Below, in pieces: positions 3,001 to 18,473 of a DNA stretch of 64,000 nucleotides. The position numbers and the translations under genes are program-made. Position 1 is the stretch's first letter, and each line of letters begins with the position of its first letter. Source of the DNA: Coniochaeta sp. PMI_546. Taxonomy: Eukaryota > Ascomycota > Sordariomycetes > Coniochaetales > Coniochaetaceae. The notes beneath the pieces are model-generated. The model had not been told where the DNA came from. It saw only the letters and a program-made list of their open reading frames with translations, and ran no database searches. The stretch lies in NCBI GenBank assembly GCA_021432605.1, contig MU271146.1, positions 1,860,001-1,924,000 on the forward strand, given 5' to 3'.

Positions 3001-6000
3001 GAAAAGAATGGGAGCCGAGCGCGACAAGTCCGGTGTTTGAGATGCTCTTGGCACGGACAAGGGCGAGAGCCGCTAGCAAGGGGTTTGGGCGAATGACGGC
3101 GTCTTATTTCTGGTTACACAAGAAGCAGTCGGACCGGCAAGGATCATAGCCTCACATCATTCCAGAAGCGCTCTAGGGCGAAGATCTTGCCGGGTCGCCT
3201 CCCCGCTGGGACGCTAGCTAACGTCCGTATTGGTCACTTTGTTGCGCGTGGCTTTCTTCAACGACGAGCTGAGTTGAGCAAGGGATACGGCCGTCTGCAT
3301 GAAGGACGACGTCGGCGCAAGGCGCTGACTCCCGCCTCGTTGGGAGCGATGTTGACCTGCTCTTTTCTGACGACATTTCTTGTGATAGGGCCGATGACCG
3401 GACGACGAACAAAGGAGATTTGCCAGAAAAGCAGCTGCTTAATTCGTTTGTGGCTGACGAGACTCCGAAGGTAACGTTAAACATGCGAAATTCAAGATGC
3501 CAGCTGTTCCGCTCGGCAATCACCGCACCTCTGCTGGCTATTTTGGACATAGCCATGGTCCTTATTCGAGGGAAAGGTTTTGTGCGCGTATTACCACAAT
3601 ATCGGCCACAATCCATCAAGGTTCTGACCAAGAAAAAGTCCCGATCCACCAACTACCGACGTATCCGGCCACGCGAGAGGCATTCGGTATTGTGATGCAC
3701 TGCGCTTGCAAGAATCTCGAGCTTCGCGTCTGACAGGCCAACGAACGTAACGCGCCCAATAGCATGATTTTGGAGTAACGCGCTTCGAACACGAGACGAG
3801 CTGACTTCCCATGTGTACGGCTGTTGCTATTCTCGGCTTTCACGTTGCTATCGCGCCTGAGCATGCAACGATGGCAAAGGTATCCGCCACTGTGGATGGC
3901 GTTATGGGAGGCGAGGCTAGCTGTCCCGGCCAGCTGGAACGTTTAACGCCTCGTCAGGTCGGAAGATATCAGTTCTGTGACCGGAATAGGCACCTTATGC
4001 ATGATTTGGGGATCTCCCACGCTGCGAGTCATGGCATGGTACGATGACCTCGGCCGAAGGTCAGAGACAATGCCTCCGGGCCTCAGCGGTAAAATATCCA
4101 GCAATACATCTCCGCTTTTACAGCACTACACCGTGACTACAGTGACTTCACAACACTATAACCCTGCTACACGTAGAATTGAGTCCACAGTAACCCACCC
4201 TGCAGGGCTGGAAGATGCAGTGGCTTAATGTCAGGCCTGACAAACCACTATGTGGTTCGGGCCGTCTGCCGAGTCGTCCTGGCAGCTTCTTATTCTAGGG
4301 TAGGCTCAGCCAGCCATACTGAGGCTCAGATGGTAGGTCCAGCATGAAGATTTTGGAAGTGCTGGCGCCCTTGGATTTGACGAAGGTCTTGTTGTATGGA
4401 TACAGTACTGGCGCAGCGCCTTCGGTACAAGCCAGCTGTGTCCGCAAGGGGCAAAGCTGCTGATCACCAGTGGAACTATGCGCTCAGTAGTGCTTGGCAT
4501 CGTCTGCTCCGTGGTATGGATCAGCTTCGTTTGAAAATTCTTTGAAGCACTTGGCCGTGCCACTCAGCGCCGTGCTCTGCGTTAGTGATGGCGAGCACAG
4601 GATCAATATTCAGGGGTTTTGGCCAGTTAGATGCCCTCCAGAGTCCCGAAAGAATCGAGCTAGACGCACAGAACGTCGGAAAGGCACGTCGGAGTTTTTA
4701 GCTATACGTTGTGATTCCCCAAAGCCAGGTTGAAGGCCTGTGAAGAGGCAATAATTTTGGCAGGTTCCCGTCGTGCATTCGCAGCGACGAATCTGGACGT
4801 CGAGAGGATGGTTGTAAATCACCCGCCCGGTGCATCCCTGCTCACCGCGACTTGACGTTGAACAGAAGGAATGACGTTGTATATGCAGCATCAAGTCGAA
4901 CTGGTTTCACCCGGCACCCTGACAACAGTATGGACACTAGCTTAGCATTCCTGACATATAGGTGGAGGATCCGGAGCCGAGAGTCTACGAATCGGGCAAT
5001 GGTTTAGCGAAGACTAGTCTCGTTCGGAGCCGTGAATGATAGGATAGAAGATCAGAGGCTCCGGTGGAAGGACAGTGTGCAGGTGGTCCCCCGGGCAAAC
5101 AGTTGGCGACGTATGTGGCACAGTGCGCTACTAGTGTACACTAGAGTTGTAGTTGATGAGCTGTCGTTGTCGAGACAATGGAACCGCTGTGGGTCATCAC
5201 CAGGCGCGAGCTCATGTCACATGGTCATGATATCCGCCTCACTCTCCTTGGAAGAACAGTCTATAAATAGCACTCCCCTACAGTGGGTCAAGGGAACCGG
5301 TTATCGGCGTGCCTTATTCGGTAACACGGCTTCTTGCAGTGAGGGAGTCGAGTGACCAACGGGTCCCACCGGGAGGAGTCGTGGCATGGAATCTTCGATG
5401 CTTTCGATTCGCAAATCTAAGATGCAGCCGTGATCCGATAGGAAAACAGCCAGGAAGGTGACTGGTTCGCTTGTTAGGTATGTCATGCTCACACTGAGTA
5501 GAAGGAAGTGATAATTTCACAACATACTTGTCATCTCTATTTCATTGTGGCGGAACACGGCCGTTCATGATGGTCGAATGTCTCAGAGACTTGGAGTGTG
5601 CTTGAGGGAGAGCACCTGATTGTGTGACGACAAGTCGGGACGAGGAAGACGAGGGTAAGGTACCATTGCCGCTCCCTTCGAAACAAAATACTGCATCGCC
5701 TACACCTGTGGAAGTGAATCAAGCGCGGGGTGGAAAGATATGGTTACAACGCCTCTTTGCAGTACAGGCTGCAGGCCGTTTCGTTCTGAGGCTCACCGCC
5801 TCCCCACTGACATCCTGGCTGCAACTCAGCATCGGCTAATAGGGTGCAGAGCAGGCCAGTACAGTGGATCGACCTTATTGGTGCCATTGCCTCGAGTGTA
5901 TAGGATAGTGTAAATGTTGCCAGATCCTAGCACTGTATGTACATGGTGTGCTTGTCTGCTGCTTGTGCTTGACAACGATCATGACATGACCGCGAATCAG

Positions 6001-9000
6001 CTTGCTTGACCTGGTGGTGGGATGTATCTTAGTCCGCCATCGACCGCTCGGCCTCCTCCGCGATTATCGGGATGAAAATCCGGAGGACATGCAGGACTCC
6101 TGTGGTGGTGAAGTCAGATGGCTATCGCGAGATGTCGCTTGATCGGGGCAACTTTAACATCAGCGCGTTGCATCCATGACCGTCATGACCGTCTATGCGG
6201 ACAAAATTATATTACGCAACAAAGAGACTAAAGAGAAACCGAGTAGCGACAGCCACGTGTAGATCTCCCATCAGCCTTAAACCTCCGACGCCACACGGTG
6301 ACGCCAACCGGGAACCGCGAATTAGCATATTCGACAATGAGGACGCCCTAGTACACGTATACACTACATAGTAAACAGCGGGGTGTGTCTGCCAAAACTC
6401 AGACATACAAAAAAAAAATACATTCAAGCAAAGGAGGGGCAGGAAAATCAATTTTTCGTGCCTGCTGCTGCTTGGGCAGTTTACACGTGTACCCCTCCAG
6501 AGAAAAGATGGTGGCGCGCTTGAAAAGAAGGTTAACTCTGAAATAGCAACAGCTATGCCGAACCGGGACTAGCGACTGAGGCTAATGCACGGGGATGATG
6601 GCATCGCTTGTTGCTGCCTCAGGTAATTATGCAGCTCGCAATCCAGTTCGACAAAGCTTGCAAAGGGGATTACCTCCGATCCCACACGGTGGATAGGTTC
6701 ACCGTCTGCTCCGCGGTATAACTGGTTGTGCGCTCGTCTTGTGCATATCACTTGGGACACACCACGTAAGGGAGGCAGTTGACAGCTGTTTGTCTCAGAA
6801 GCGAGGTTGGTGCCATTAACGCACGCTGTTTGGTAGAAGGAGCTAAAGGAGATTGTGAATTGTGGCAGTGCCTCCCGTGTCGTTGGAGGTTGGTGATGAC
6901 GCCAGTAAGGAGCAGGGGAAGGTAAACTTCGGGCTTTCTGCCCGTGCAGCAGGGGGTGAACCTTGGTGAAAAAGGCAGTGGGTTGAGCTTGATTAGCGGA
7001 TCAGATCATTCAGGAGCAAAAAGAACAAAGTCGTGCAACTTGGAGCCCTTGCAGCTAGAGGAAGCTTGTGAGACGGCCACTGGGTTTCGCTCTTCACCGT
7101 GTATTGGTCTTGCTGGTCTGTGCACAGCCGGGCGAAATGAAACTCGGCTCCGCGCACTGATTGCTTCAAACTTCAACCGAGGTGATCGTGGTTCGCGTGG
7201 AGAAGATGAGGGTGAAGTTGAAGATCCCGGGTTGACGTCGCCCGAGAACAACGGACCAGGACCCCAAAAAATCGCTGTTCCGCGCATCACCAGTCCGGGG
7301 TCCCTGGCCGCCAAAAATGGACACGAGAAACCGTTGTTTCACCCAACCAGACGAAGAATGTGAGCAGTCCGGCGAATCACGACGGGATTGGCCTGTTCAG
7401 TCGGGGTCAGGCATTTTGGGCGAGCTTTTAGTGGCCCGTGCCATTGGGAAAGAGGCTAGGGAAGACCCTGTGCATTGATTTTCAACGGCTAGGAAACACA
7501 TCGGCAGGGGGTTGATGCCAGGCGGCGGAGTATTTCTCAAGACCAGGGCTACAGTTGGGGACATGTGGGGAAAGTTTCAAGCTGTGCTTTGCAACAATTT
7601 CGCGTCGTCATCATCGACTTGCTTTTCAGTTGATGTTGTTGTGTGACTGTGAATCGGTCAAAGCGTCTCTTTCGAGCGTCACAGGACGTCTTCGAAGTCT
7701 AGGATGAGGCGGATGAGCCCTGCGGTTCCAACACAAAGTACTTTGAGGTGAGGAATCGACGTTCGGGGGCGCGCCGACGATAAGATGGTGCCGCTTCTGC
7801 CGAAATGTTCTCCGAAAGTGGGGTTAGATACCGTAGCTGCCCAACAGTATGGGTCGTTATGGAAATGACAGCCGGAGATCCAAACTCGAATGACTGATTT
7901 TTTTACCATCGGGCTCATCGGTAGGAGCGAGTCCACTCGGCCGGGGCAGGAAGGTCGCGCGGAGTGCTGAGAGTCCTGGTCCTGAACGGGAACTGCTATT
8001 ACTGTCACCATGATTCATACGCCCGACAGTGGCTCCATATGCCCAAAATAGCCGTGAAGTCCAGCATTTATGAAATGCTTGATGGTGCGATGCCGGTGGA
8101 TGTTTCGAATGAAGCTCTCTAGCCGGTAACTGCAGGCCGCAGTTTGGTAAGAGAGGCAATTCTTCAACAAAGATGGTCAACCCAGAGTTCATAGGGTTGC
8201 TGGCACTCAGTCCTCTGCTCGGTGTAGATTGAGCAGCGCAGGATATTGCGAGCATCTTCATCGTTTCAAGCTCCGAAGCACTGGAGCGTAGATGAAGTCA
8301 GGAAGTACCCCATCACGTTCCAGAGGGCAGAAGGCGTTAGGCGTGCCAAGTGGTGCGGCATGGGAAGGTCAGGTAGGTTTGACAGTGCTGCGTAGCTGGT
8401 TCGCAGGTAACGCAGCGGCAAGAACAATGCATGCTACCACACCAGAGACGCGTCGCCCGCATTGTTTGAGGAGAGCGCACACTCACTCATGAGCCACCTG
8501 CTGGCAGGCCGCAACAGCGCCGAGGGGAGCTCCGCCTCATCCTCGTGACTAAGGACAAAGCTCACCATATTTCGCTAAACACTATGATTTGAGAAGGGTC
8601 GTCCTTCGGCGTGATGAGCCCGCCAGAGCCATGACTGCGCCCTCAGGTACTCCAGATTGATTGATGATTCTGCCGGCATCACCTGTGTGTTGAAAATGGT
8701 AGAGTGGGCAAGAAGTGCCCTAGAGTCCAAGGATCCAGTGGTGGAAAGCGTGTGTGCTTGTGCCAACTGTTATGCATGCTAGGGGTCTTGGTGACCAGAA
8801 TTTACGGTGTATACATGCTCTGGTACGTTCAATGAAACTTGCAAGAAGTGCCAGTAAAGGGAAGCTCAGCCTCGATTGTGCGCCTAGTACAGTAAATGTT
8901 TTTTTCTCCCTCCCCCACAGAGAGGGCTAACCGCTTGTGGGCAGTGGGCGACAGCACGATGAGTGACTGCGGGTACCGAGACAACCTACCAGGCTCAGAT

Positions 9001-9900: not shown

Positions 9901-10703
9901 ATGTCAGGCCCCCCAAAGGCCGGACATGCCCTCCTCCTCTCGATCGAATCTGTATCGTCACCATAAGATCTACAGCCTCTCGCTGCCAAACCACTACCCA
10001 CATTCGCTTTTGCAAATCATCCTAGGAAGTCCTCGCGGCTCCTGTCATTCGCTTGTTTCTTTATTGTCATTGAAGTGCTTGGAGAGTTCTAGACCGACAT
10101 CCCGTCTTACCCGGAATCCAAGGAAAGAACTCTTGTCTCGCCCAAAAAACGATCGACCTCAACTTGATCGGTCAACCGCGTCCCTCACCTGGAACTGTCT
10201 AGTACTTTAGATGTTCCTCTGCCGGCTATACTAAAACACTTGGCTGAGTCTACTTGTGTGCCTCTTCGAACCCAACAACCCCCTACGATCGCTACTGTAT
10301 CAGCAACGGAAGCTTGGAGAGAAAGAGGGAGAACTCACGGAGAGAGGTCGGGTTTTTGCTGCTTGGTCATCTCACTGGGCTAGCATCACCAATATCAACA
10401 TTCGCTTTCACACGCCACAACAACCCTCAACCCACCGACTCCTCTCGGCGTTAACCTTGAGCAGCTCACCTGCTCCCTAGTGCCGTAGGATCCTCATCGC
10501 CGACTATCTACATCTTATATAGTTGGTCTCTGATCTCACACTTCTCATCTTCTGTTGCAGTACAACACGACGTTCGCTACCCCTTCGAAGAGACGTCCTC
10601 GTCTCTTTCTTCAAGTAGGACGCCTACTCAGAGAAAGCTTGTACTCGACGTCACTAACGCCCGATCTCAGTTCTTTCGTTAACTCATTTGCCAAGTCATC
10701 AAG
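9901..10703 (+). promoter_or_regulatory. Pyrimidine-rich promoter and leader of the zinc-cluster gene
   Basis: The 800 bases before the transcription-factor start are rich in C and T with CA-rich stretches, which is usual for fungal promoters and leaders. Several short upstream reading frames occur. A good 3' splice site, TTCTGTTGCAG, ends at about 10559 and may close a leader intron, although no single donor stands out. A long leader with upstream reading frames is common for regulatory genes in filamentous fungi; the transcription start cannot be fixed from sequence. Confidence 0.4.
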
Positions 10704-14199: not shown

Positions 14200-15691
14200 T
14201 CACCTCTTCCCAGCAGCAGCCTTCCTCTTATTCTTCCCTAGCCGAGGCGTCGTCTTGCCCTTCCCTCCTCCAGCCTTCATCCGCTTGACGCTGAAACCGC
14301 CCAGATCGCCGGCACTCACCGCATCGTTGGACTTGGCATGCCTCTTCTTGCCGCCGAAGCCGAACTTGGAGTCCTTCTTGTGCCGCTTCGCGGCCGGGCC
14401 GTCGCGACCGCCGGCACGCTTGCCGGCGCTCTTCCTGTCGGCGCCCTTGATCTCGTCTTCGACGGCGACGTCGAAATCGATGGCTTCCCTCTCGCCCGCG
14501 GCCGCACCGGACTCGGAGCGTTCTGTTATGTTTGTGTTAGATCAACCTCAAACGTAGCTGATAGGAGACCGGATCTGGGAAATAGAAAAACTCACTCCTC
14601 TTCAAAGTCTTGATCTTCTCCAGCGTCTCCCTCTTGGCCTTGGCGCGCTCCTGCTCCTTGGCGACCTGGACCTGCTTGCCGAACTTCTTCAGGTCGCGCT
14701 GCTTCCGGGCCTCGGCAGCGGCCTTCTTGCTGGTGGCCTCCTCGACGAGGCGCGCCTTGACCTTCTCCATCTGCCCCTCGTTCTTGACCATCTCGGCGAA
14801 GTAGTCGTTGGGCCGGGTGAAGGGCACGCCCTCCTTGATCAGCTGGGCGCGGCCGATCTTGGCCGCCTCGAGGGCCTGGGCGTAGAACGCCAGCTCGCGC
14901 TGCAGGTCGTCTTGGATGTCCTCGATCGCGTCGGCGGTGGGCTTGGACGAGACGACGGACTGGTGCGTCGCGAAGGGGACGGAGGGTCCCTGCGGGAGCG
15001 CGATGCGTGCAAGGGCGGCGAGGAGGGCGGTGTGGTTGTTGATCGTTGTGCGGGTGTGGGGAACGAGGTCGTCGCGCTCTTCGTCCTCGAGGTCCTCTAG
15101 ATCCTCGAGGTCGATGTCTGAATCTTCCTCGTCTTCTTCCTCTTCTTCCGAGTCGGACTGGGCGATTGCGGCCTTTCGTACTTGCGACTTGTCGGCTTTG
15201 GGCTTGGGGAGGTCGGTGGGCTGCTTCCCTCTCTTTGGCCGCTCGATCTTGGCTTCCATCTCCACCTCGGACTCGGATGAGCTCTCGTCGTGTTCGAATT
15301 GGGCGAGGTCGAGCTGGTAGATGGTTAGTGTCTGAGACAAGAGTGGTGGCTGCGACGGCAGGGGTTTCTATGCACTCACCTTGCCCTCCTCGTCGGATTC
15401 TTCCTCGTCGGAGTCGCCTTCCTCTGCCTCGTCATCAATCAGCCCATTCATGTCGTTATCGGCATCTGAGTCCTCCTCTTCTTCCCAATCGTCGTCATCG
15501 TCATCAGACTCTAGCTCAGCGTCCGCTTGAGGTTTCTCCTTTTGCTGTGGCTTCTTCAAGTTCCTGGTGTCGGGCAGCCCCGCTCTACGCTTTTTCCTCG
15601 AGTTTTCCTTCTGCTTCCTCTTTTGCAGAACCTTCTTGATGTCGACGCCCTTCTCGGCGGCGAGAGCCGATAGTAACCTGCTTTTGGCCAT
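14200..15691 (-). CDS. EBP2: rRNA-processing protein EBP2
   Basis: Nucleolar protein of the Ebp2 family, needed in yeast for 27S pre-rRNA processing and 60S ribosomal subunit assembly. The model has three exons on the minus strand, 15691-15380, 15313-14596 and 14522-14200, giving 450 residues with GT-AG introns of 66 and 73 nt. The first third is highly charged with runs of D and E, typical of nucleolar proteins. The conserved core follows, with the segments RELAFYAQAL and PFTRPNDYFAEM. The C-terminus is the family signature, KFGFGGKKRHAKSN, then a basic tail with RLGKNKRKA. The frame stays open upstream of the chosen ATG, but MAKSRLLSAL fits a true N-terminus. A GATGAGCT sequence near 16048 resembles the PAC element of ribosome-biogenesis genes, though a single copy is weak evidence. 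Confidence 0.93.
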
Positions 15692-16386
15692 GTTGTGTCT
15701 TCTGTGGTGTCGAGGTCTGTATCGTTTGTATGGAGACCTTGGGCTTCGTATCTGGTTAGGGCGACCCTGCAGAACTTTTTTTCGTCGAGGTCGATTTTCT
15801 GCCGCAGTGTTATGCGGGCCTAGTTGGAGGTTTAGGAGCGCTAGGAGCTCACCGCTCATACAAAAAGCGGGTCCGCCCGTCCTTGGAGCTCTCTCCGAGT
15901 TTGGCATCTTTATCAAACATTCCATACCTAGGGACATTGATCCGACAGCATACTTATAGCAGCCGACATGATCACAGAAGAGACATGCAAAACCATCGAC
16001 TATGTAGAGTAGGGTGAAGCTGTCGCGCAAACTTACTTTGTGAACAGGGATGAGCTCCTTGGGCTGAATGTTCTGAGGAATGCAGTTTGGCGGCGGGAGT
16101 CACAATGCTGATGCTATTTAATGGCAGGAGAGAGGGAGGTTCGGTGTCCTACCAAGTAGTAGAACACGACAAAACCTTCTAAGCAAAGTCATATGACAGA
16201 CGAGTCACAAGTCACAAGGCAAAATGGACGCTCGAAGTTGGGCCAACATGCCTTCATTAAGATTTTCCATTCTAGCGATAATGTACTAATCCATCCATCC
16301 CGTCCCCTCTCCAAATAGAAAATAGCCCCCTTGCTGGACAGCTCATGGCCAACTCGCCATCCAACGAACAAGGGACCTAGGTATCA
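15692..16386. other. Upstream region of EBP2
   Basis: This is noncoding sequence between the EBP2 start and the 3' flank of the pheromone gene. It holds CT-rich and GA-rich patches and a GATGAGCT motif near 16048. No other gene was seen. Confidence 0.5.
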
Positions 16387-16935
16387 TCAACAGTAATGCA
16401 CATCGTCGTCCGGTACGGGCCAGTCCCTCTCGAATCCCGGCTCGGGTTGACAGCCCAGGAAATCCTGTGTCAAAAAGGCTGACGATGGCGAAGAAACGTA
16501 AAATGTCGTGGTTGGGGTTATGTAGGTGTGGCATTGCCGGCTGACAGGGGAGAAGTGAAGTGAAGGTGGTCTGTGGAAGTTGCGTCGTAGCTCGGCAGCT
16601 GTGGATGGTCCGCTCAAGGTGCAGTGGGCCATGGTGGTTCTGAAGCTGCTGTCGCTACTAGGAGGTCCGAACGAGGCGTGCTGAGGTTGAGGTGGAGTTG
16701 GCTGCGCACAGCGAGAGATGAGTGACGGGTCAGACGTCTGGCTGGGGACGATGCTTCTCTGATTTGGCGAGGACATTGTTGGTTTTATAGGTGAGAAGTT
16801 GCTCGGAAGCGAAGACAGGGGTTCGTGAGATTCCGGTGGTATCGATGATGTCTTCGCTTGGTGTTGCCAGATGCTGGGTTGGGAGAGCTCCCGTCGACTC
16901 GTCTCTTGCCCCGTTCGAAAGGCTCCGTAGGTCAT
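16387..16935 (-). other. 182-codon frame directly after the pheromone stop; probably 3' UTR
   Basis: An ATG at 16935 follows the pheromone TAA with no base between, and the frame runs 182 codons. The translation is rich in S, P, T and Q, with no recognisable domain; the end, with PVPDDDVHYC, looks more protein-like. Fungal pheromone transcripts can have long untranslated tails, so 3' UTR is the simplest reading. A separate downstream cistron or an exon of an unrecognised gene cannot be excluded. Confidence 0.3.
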
Positions 16936-17004
16936 TTACATGACAACGCAGTAGCCGTCGAGGTTGGTCTGGACCTTGGGGGTGGAAGTCTGCTTGGAAG
17001 GCAT
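16936..17004 (-). CDS. a-factor-type lipopeptide mating pheromone precursor
   Basis: A 22-codon gene, ATG at 17004-17002 and TAA at 16938-16936. The peptide begins MPSKQTSTPK and ends LDGYCVVM. The last four residues form a CaaX box (C19, V20, V21, M22), the signal for farnesylation, removal of the last three residues and carboxymethylation. The size, MPS start, S/T/P-rich leader and YCVVM end match the mfa-1-type precursors of Neurospora and relatives, which are exported by a Ste6-type ABC transporter and sensed by a Ste3-type receptor on the opposite mating type. The leader before the ATG is CA/CT-rich (ATCAATCAAC then ATG), as in strongly expressed fungal genes, and a TATA-like ATAAATA lies about 115 bases upstream. 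It is too short for usual gene callers. The mature N-terminus cannot be predicted from sequence. Confidence 0.88.
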   Translation of the reverse strand: MPSKQTSTPKVQTNLDGYCVVM

Positions 17005-17849
17005 GTTGATTGATTTGAAGTTTGCTTGAAAAGCGGAAGCTGGTTGAGTGTTGTGTATTGAGTTGAAGATGATTGTGCTGAGGAGGAGAAGTTAGAATCT
17101 GCTCGGGAGGAGAGGCTGGTATTTATGGTTTTCTCGTCCCTCGAGATCAACAGATGAGATTGAGGATGAATAGCCTGTGGGCTGTATGCTGCGAGTTCTT
17201 TGCATTGTGGGACTGAGAAAATACCCTAGGTGAGGCGCACGAGGACAAAAGAAGCCATCGCCACTTCGATGCTGCTCGCCCAGAAAGAGTGCGTGATATT
17301 GTCACCTTAGTATTGTCCTCAAGCAAACAGGCAAACATATAGAAGTCTTTTATCATGGATTCTAGACCGAGCGCAAAAGTCTCATGGATCTAAGGCCTCG
17401 TGTCCTTGGATGGACGCCACATCGAATGTCATGCACACTCTAGGACACCACATACGTTCCTTATAGACTTTCAACAAAAAGAAGGTCGAGAGTACTAGCA
17501 AAGCATTTAGCGTCACAGGGTAAAACGCTGTGATTTCGTTCTCAAGCGTGAAAAAGGATTGTGGAGAGGTGTGATAGTGATTGGATTTTGTGGTAGCTGA
17601 AGTCGACTTAGTATTATCTCCTTAGTATTGTTCTCCATCCCTACTACGCGGATCATGTACACAGCTCGACACTAAGCTGCAACCACAACTCAAATATCAT
17701 ATAATTCAATAATGAAGCTTAAGAATCTGACAAAAGGCCAAGCCACCAGCATGCTTCGCCTCGGCCTTGGAGTCGATGACGGTCCTTTTCCTCCGCTGGT
17801 CACGCTCTTGCTCGGAAAGCAGGGCAGCTATGAAAAAAAAACACTTGAT
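17005..17849 (-). promoter_or_regulatory. Promoter and leader of the pheromone gene
   Basis: Noncoding sequence upstream of the pheromone ATG, bounded by the 3' end of cyanase. On the minus strand it holds an ATAAATA TATA-like box at 17126-17120 and a CT-rich leader with CTTCTCCTCCTC at about 17090. Farther upstream lie repeated CTTAGTATT motifs, listed separately. The bases nearest 17849 are probably cyanase 3' UTR. Extents are inferred. Confidence 0.5.
17305..17635. promoter_or_regulatory. Three copies of CTTAGTATT upstream of the pheromone gene
   Basis: CCTTAGTATTGTCCTC at 17305-17320 and CCTTAGTATTGTTCTC at 17620-17635 differ at one base in 16. A shorter copy, CTTAGTATTATCTC, lies next to the second at about 17607-17620. 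They sit about 300 and 600 bases upstream of the pheromone ATG. The ATTGT core resembles the site bound by SRY-type HMG-box proteins, the class of some mating-type regulators. That link is inference. Confidence 0.55.
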
Positions 17850-18473
17850 CTAGAACCTAGTGAAAGGGAGCCTATTTCGAGGATGTTAGTTGAAATCCAC
17901 AGACAATCGACACCAAGAAATTTATCAGATGAACGGACCATTTGCCCCTGAGTGTAATGACTACCCAGGATGCCCCGGAATCATCCACCTCCTTCTCGAC
18001 GTTTGTGTTGAAGCAGATGGCACTCATAATACCGTCGCCAAACTTTTCGTTCAGGACTGCCTTGTACGCGTATCCGTAGTTCTGGACGATCTCATACAGG
18101 CGATAAATCAGAGGCTCGACAGGAGGCATGGGGCCAGCCCTGCCCCTGTCAGGAAATCCCATCATTTGACTGGCAATAGTCTCCTTGGGAACTCCGAGGA
18201 TTTGTGACAGCTTCTCCACATCCTCGGCAGATGCTTGTACCTGACCGTAAAAGAGGCCAGCAACAGCGATCTCACTACGTCCGAGCTCTTTGGCGAGCGT
18301 TTCAAAGCTGAGGCCCCTCTCGGTCTTGGCCTCGAAGAGAGACTTGGAATACGCAGGTAGTCGATCAACAATCGAGCTCTGCAAGAAGTTAGTCACCATA
18401 GCTAACACGTGTGCTAATCTGTGTTGTTTGATAGTCTTACATCTAGCGAAGCGAGCCTTGGTTGTTCCGACAT
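17850..18473 (-). CDS. Cyanate hydratase (cyanase)
   Basis: Converts cyanate plus bicarbonate to ammonia and carbon dioxide, detoxifying cyanate and releasing nitrogen; cytosolic decamer in the characterised family. Three exons on the minus strand, 18473-18441, 18378-17939 and 17871-17850, give 164 residues, close to the family length. An N-terminal helical domain contains [19 protein letters not shown]. The catalytic triad known from the E. coli enzyme is present: Arg and Glu in YRLYE (R104, E107) and Ser in DGIMSA (S130). The last exon is only 22 nt; it restores the family C-terminus GKWLPFTRF across a junction that splits the Trp codon. Its intron has an unusual donor, GTCCGT, so automated models may miss it and read into the intron. 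The 18473 ATG begins [11 protein letters not shown]; the frame is open upstream but less plausible. Confidence 0.95.

Follow-up and report, generated by a model that had tools for sequence, protein, structure and literature searches.

A probable short a-factor-type pheromone gene in Coniochaeta sp. PMI_546 and a candidate mating-type operator shared with pheromone-pathway genes

Analysis of a 64,000-nucleotide stretch of the Coniochaeta sp. PMI_546 genome (the window; contig C4:1860001-1924000 of the strain's own genome) points to a long and very rare candidate operator specific to MAT1-2, GAACAATACTAAG (CTTAGTATTGTTC), that probably joins the making of the lipid pheromone (a-factor, farnesyltransferase beta and ICMT) and its STE6-like export with STE2 sensing of the partner's pheromone and adds to these a P450 gene and perhaps an aspartyl protease; we hold this reading with moderate confidence. 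The pheromone gene itself is a 22-codon ATG frame plus stop, found by translating both strands and running on the minus strand from 17004 to 16936, and its 22-residue peptide begins with MPS and ends with YCVVM. The sequence-only reading had proposed an a-factor-type pheromone gene with this start and this CaaX end at 16936..17004, without stating the strand; the frame is there, whilst the plus strand of the same interval reads otherwise. Sequence, locus and genome context support the proposed identity. The frame is very probably an a-factor (mfa/ppg2 type) lipopeptide pheromone gene of a MAT1-2 ascomycete, an assignment based on the frame and its CaaX box, the chance controls, the similarity to the C. 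globosum a-factor, the locus, and the mating and processing genes present in the genome.

The promoter of the pheromone gene carries two exact copies of the 12-mer RACAATACTAAG and one near copy. On the minus strand these are the element GACAATACTAAG at 17306..17317, 302 bases before the ATG, the one-mismatch copy ATAATACTAAG at 17607..17617, 603 bases before it, and the element AACAATACTAAG at 17621..17632, 617 bases before it. The AACAAT copy at 17621 holds an ATTGTT core on the other strand, and the GACAAT copies read ATTGTC. Searching the window for TTAGTATT on either strand returned three occurrences, every one within the pheromone promoter. Nearer the gene, a TATA-like CATAAATA (17120..17127, minus strand) precedes the ATG by about 120 bases, with a CT/CA-rich leader between it and the start codon.

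Across the 33.5 Mb genome, RACAATACTAAG occurs nine times and its backward control six times. Two exact sites precede STE2, at 583 and 625 bases before the chosen start (C19:304865-304918). At the density of the backward control, the chance of two sites falling less than 1 kb from STE2 is about 1.6e-8, a figure that is only rough because the word was derived from the pheromone promoter and seven pathway loci were inspected for it (STE2, STE3, MAT, ICMT and three prenyltransferases). STE6 was asked for beforehand among the five exact sites then unassigned, and one of these proved to adjoin an ABC transporter gene (L046), which it precedes by 279 bases (C7:1989813-1989824). The ABC protein, encoded in one open piece of 1087 aa, scored 406 bits against Ste6, 482 against P-glycoprotein and 437 against the ABCB1 entry 7zk4; its assignment as STE6 is a weak one, and we refer to the gene as STE6-like.

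Further exact sites were found before two genes outside the established pheromone genes. The first, 233 bases before the inferred start of a P450 gene near a contig end (L044, C2:37000-46900), belongs to a group in which the exact word and two weaker copies (4411, 4544 and 4581) lie within 370 bases before that start. The second lies 429 bases before the start of a secreted-type aspartyl protease gene, in the opposite orientation (L048, C14:514000-523900), with a near copy 14 bases from the exact word (sites 4691 and 4705). The P450 gene is possibly a new mating-type-specific gene; a Bar1-like role for the protease, in which it would remove the pheromone of the partner, is only a guess. Two other exact sites displayed no link to mating: the one in L045 is on the margin of a frame for a TPR protein that weakly matches NACHT, and the one in L047 falls within an open frame that matched no family. 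No small CaaX genes were flagged around the sites at L044, L045, L047 and L048, and an NCBIfam search with three element-linked genes returned no useful name.

Selected genome loci were also scanned with ACAATACTAAG, allowing one mismatch. The farnesyltransferase beta gene displayed a one-mismatch copy, AGAACAATACTATG, 248 bases before its ATG (C15, L043:1078-1091), and the ICMT gene displayed one in the opposite orientation 240 bases before an ATG that was set by eye (C3, L023:2556-2569). The STE2 locus contained an extra one-mismatch site approximately 3.7 kb upstream (L049:8000), outside the claimed promoters. No site was found in seven of seven control promoters with approximate limits, namely those of EBP2, cyanase, TFIIIC, STE3, MAT1-2-1 and both geranylgeranyltransferase beta genes, and 177065 bases that were chosen independently of the motif and lay outside the claimed promoters contained no sites at up to one mismatch. 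A Markov model yielded 16 sites at that threshold per 1,280,000 bases.

The arrangement resembles that of the a-specific operators of yeast, where one operator type (a2/Mcm1) stands before the a-factor, STE2 and STE6 genes, as one candidate operator type here stands before the a-factor, STE2 and STE6-like genes. Inspection of the word contexts by eye against the consensus gave no clear Mcm1 half-site.

Published work on mating regulation in filamentous ascomycetes, cited throughout from the available parts of each text, provides a closer comparison. In P. anserina with FPR1, a MAT1-2-type regulator, five pheromone-pathway genes were raised: the lipid pheromone gene, PRE2 (STE2 type), RAM1, the isoprenylcysteine methyltransferase gene and STE6 (PMC3125171, in which the STE24/STE14 naming is inconsistent and the p-value for STE6 is weak). 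The word precedes the counterparts of all five in the present genome, as exact copies in three and one-mismatch copies in two, with the identity of STE6 putative. In F. graminearum, the HMG domain of MAT1-2-1 binds ATTGTT, PPG2 is MAT1-2-specific and the STE2-type receptor PRE2 looked constitutive (PMC4559316); a MAT1-2-1 site has also been reported in the promoter of its alpha-type PPG1 (PMC11708053). The AACAAT copies described here contain the ATTGTT of that F. graminearum site (ATTGTT / ATTGTTTAA; PMC4559316), but the present word is longer, CTTAGTATTGTY, with a TTAGT side that the Fusarium motif lacks. The sites given in the available papers on other ascomycetes are likewise short HMG cores. 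For P. anserina, a motif search is reported to have yielded the HMG word ATCAAAG in both pheromone promoters and no HMG core in PRE2 (PMC3730723); the word described here is therefore not one that all Sordariomycetes share. Among the matches listed in literature searches, none for ACAATACTAA or TTAGTATTGT was about fungal mating by title, and the available parts of those on a-specific elements in filamentous ascomycetes did not report the word.

We consider the shared promoter word a reasonably probable candidate for a MAT1-2-specific operator of MAT1-2-1. The main alternative is that it is the site of another regulator, either an HMG protein of the FMF1/PaHMG5 type or a pheromone-response factor, acting in both mating types. 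PaHMG5 weakly binds sites in P. anserina pheromone promoters (PMC3730723), and each of the two MAT proteins of V. dahliae binds AACAAT in the promoters of Ppg2 and Pre1, and each increases the activity of the two pheromone promoters and decreases that of the two receptor promoters (PMC11077750). This explanation is possible but unlikely, as the FMF1 motif is TCTTTGTY and not ATTGTT (PMC11708053), and STE3 and the MAT locus, possible targets of such a regulator, have no site.

The mating type of the strain was approached through its HMG-box genes. Of ten HMG-box matches in the genome, one on C5 has its box interrupted by an intron. It lies between two genes, one encoding an APN2-type nuclease and the other a protein of the SLA2 type with ANTH and I/LWEQ domains. 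We take these flanks to be the usual setting of MAT1, and the hallmark residues of the C5 box look to us like those of MAT1-2-1. A different HMG locus (L011/L024) had been considered as MAT1-2-1 and was dropped in favour of L009/L026. Two open frames without Pfam matches (4733-5314 and 5883-6803, minus strand) were also observed at the MAT locus, L026, between the SLA2-type gene and MAT1-2-1. Searching the genome for MATalpha gave no match, as did the control, and a MATalpha gene is likely absent. The strain is most likely of the MAT1-2 mating type, because a MAT1-2-1-type HMG gene lies between SLA2- and APN2-type genes and MATalpha was not matched; MAT1-2 is the mating type that makes a-factor (PMC10182648). 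The alpha-pheromone repeat pattern W-C-x3-G-Q-x-C-W had no match in the whole genome although STE2 is present; the repeat may differ from this pattern, so absence of an alpha-pheromone is not shown by the search.

Both receptor genes, STE3 and STE2, are present in the genome, as is an ICMT gene (3.8e-26). Three prenyltransferase beta genes were separated by PDB comparison: the gene on C15 is the farnesyltransferase beta gene (best match Ram1, 3.4e-59), whilst C8:52847 and C8:690407 encode the beta subunits of geranylgeranyltransferase I and II, respectively. In yeast, farnesylation, cleavage, methylation and trimming of a-factor, its export by STE6 and its sensing by STE3 are established, and PMC3125171 names some of these steps. 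In the present fungus, MAT1-2-1 would bind CTTAGTATTGTY sites, which read RACAATACTAAG on the opposite strand, at upstream distances of roughly 230-630 bases, and so co-activate the genes for the a-factor, STE2, the STE6-like transporter, farnesyltransferase beta and ICMT, and the 22-mer would be translated in MAT1-2 cells. The farnesyltransferase would lipidate Cys19 of the peptide, the VVM would be cleaved off, the new peptide end would be methylated by ICMT and the N-terminal leader would be trimmed. Export would proceed through the STE6-type ABC pump, and the STE3 receptor of MAT1-1 partners would bind the exported peptide.

It is also conceivable, though improbable, that the frame was once a functional a-factor gene in a fungus that is now asexual, or that it serves a purpose unrelated to mating, for instance density sensing. 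The MAT1-2-type gene is the only MAT type seen in the strain, and PMC10182648 mentions quorum sensing through a pheromone in F. oxysporum. Against this, the frame, the receptors and the processing genes are all present, and the word is common to the pheromone and receptor genes, as expected of a working mating system.

As to the frame itself, the CaaX box codons (Cys-Val-Val-Met) occupy 16939..16950 on the minus strand and form the predicted site of farnesylation and processing, the role described for such boxes in PMC11077750 and PMC10569646. The protein matched once in the strain's own genome (E 7.3e-10; 33,477,513 bases in 24 contigs). By eye, the peptide has no hydrophobic stretch, which fits a very short precursor without a signal peptide, and a Pfam search of its 22 residues gave no match. 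Its codons rank fourth of 351 short frames (18-40 aa) in synonymous codon preference, at 0.24 bits per codon compared with 0.20 for EBP2, and its GC3 is 86%. The window contains 661 frames of 15-120 aa that start with ATG; seven of them have a loose CaaX end, and two of the seven also begin with MPS. Directly before a TAA or TAG stop, the motif Tyr-Cys-[VIM]-[VIM]-Met is present at three sites in the 33.5 Mb genome, the pheromone frame among them; the other two were rejected as a second a-factor, as were two GC[ST]VM-stop sites as an h-type gene, all four having no upstream ATG in the open stretch (counting TAA and TAG stops only). A literature text search for YCVVM returned no match.

Comparison with published precursors was made with two species. 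Aligned with the C. globosum a-factor, which is printed without its CaaX end (PMC3068285), the pheromone frame scored 38, the highest of the 661 window frames, the next reaching 28. This score was attained by nine of 20000 full shuffles of the peptide, and by 339 of 20000 when MPS and YCVVM were held fixed and only the middle was shuffled. The M. grisea a-factor aligns with the peptide over YCV(V/I)M only, and other window frames outscore the pheromone frame against it.

Cyanase (cyanate lyase), the upstream neighbour of the pheromone gene, was identified at 17872..18399 (Pfam PF02560, 5.9e-30), with a short first exon that may lie further up, and the rRNA-processing gene EBP2, the downstream neighbour of the pheromone gene, at 14537..15692 (Pfam PF05890, 2.8e-60, and EBP2 chains in the PDB). 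The 5' end of EBP2 was set by eye, and the profile matched to 146/246, so at least one 3' exon lies beyond 14537. All three genes are on the minus strand. Directly after the pheromone stop is a 182-codon open frame (16387..16935, minus strand), which was rejected as a gene (no Pfam match; synonymous codon score 0.012 per codon) and is most likely untranslated 3' region.

An a-factor precursor gene near the cyanate lyase gene has been described in N. crassa, M. grisea and F. graminearum, with the a-factor gene downstream of cyanate lyase in C. globosum and M. grisea; EBP2 and MYND genes are among the published flanks, their order and orientation vary, and the locus is partly conserved in N. crassa, M. 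grisea, Fusarium and C. globosum and rearranged in P. anserina (PMC3068285). The P. anserina pheromone gene is Pa_2_2310 (PMC3125171) and Pa_2_2300 is a cyanase (PMC7849911), the two having neighbouring gene numbers. The MYND zinc-finger search gave six matches in the genome and none in the window, the nearest on the contig being about 320 kb away; MYND adjacency was not treated as defining an a-type locus, because gene order varies in the available description (PMC3068285). The sequence-only reading correctly placed the frame between EBP2 and cyanase and away from the mating-type locus, but the remark misleads, since this position is the published a-factor locus (PMC3068285).

The gene thus shares a short CaaX precursor and the cyanase locus with N. 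crassa mfa-1, F. graminearum ppg2, P. anserina MFP and the C. globosum and M. grisea genes (PMC3068285), and differs in a peptide sequence of its own, compared letter by letter with C. globosum and M. grisea only, and in the lack of an adjacent MYND gene. With the h-type or multi-repeat precursors (Trichoderma hpp1, V. dahliae Ppg2, Huntiella), it has in common a C-terminal CaaX or CpaX box, and according to the available texts h-type precursors of some Fusarium species occupy the same locus as the a-type. In contrast to these, of which the h-type is marked by a repeated internal CaaX-like motif and Kex2 sites, the present precursor has a single mature unit and a single, aliphatic CVVM box, with no internal repeats.

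The reading in which a short frame downstream of cyanase has its CaaX-like end by chance and encodes no pheromone is very hard to credit: of 4000 sequences obtained by first-order Markov resampling of 16300-17870, 198 contained at least one frame of 15-45 aa with a CaaX end, and the window holds a second MPS...CaaX frame that looks like chance, but only one of the same 4000 resamplings also had an MP[ST] start, and the codon preference, TATA and leader, C. globosum similarity, published locus and word common to mating genes argue otherwise. That second frame (94 residues, MPS...CLVL, plus strand, 9926-10210) was rejected as another pheromone and taken as chance because it has no codon bias (preference -0.09), a lower GC3 (51%) and no Pfam family.

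The pheromone gene is of an ordinary kind at a known chromosomal address, and as one more a-factor it is useful for annotating mating and for predicting the pheromone of the fungus. The promoter word matters more than the gene itself. If the word is the operator of MAT1-2-1, the mating-type-specific gene set of a mould could be listed by genome search; if true, this would reveal the wiring of the a-specific gene set in a filamentous ascomycete, a compact regulon readable from DNA alone.
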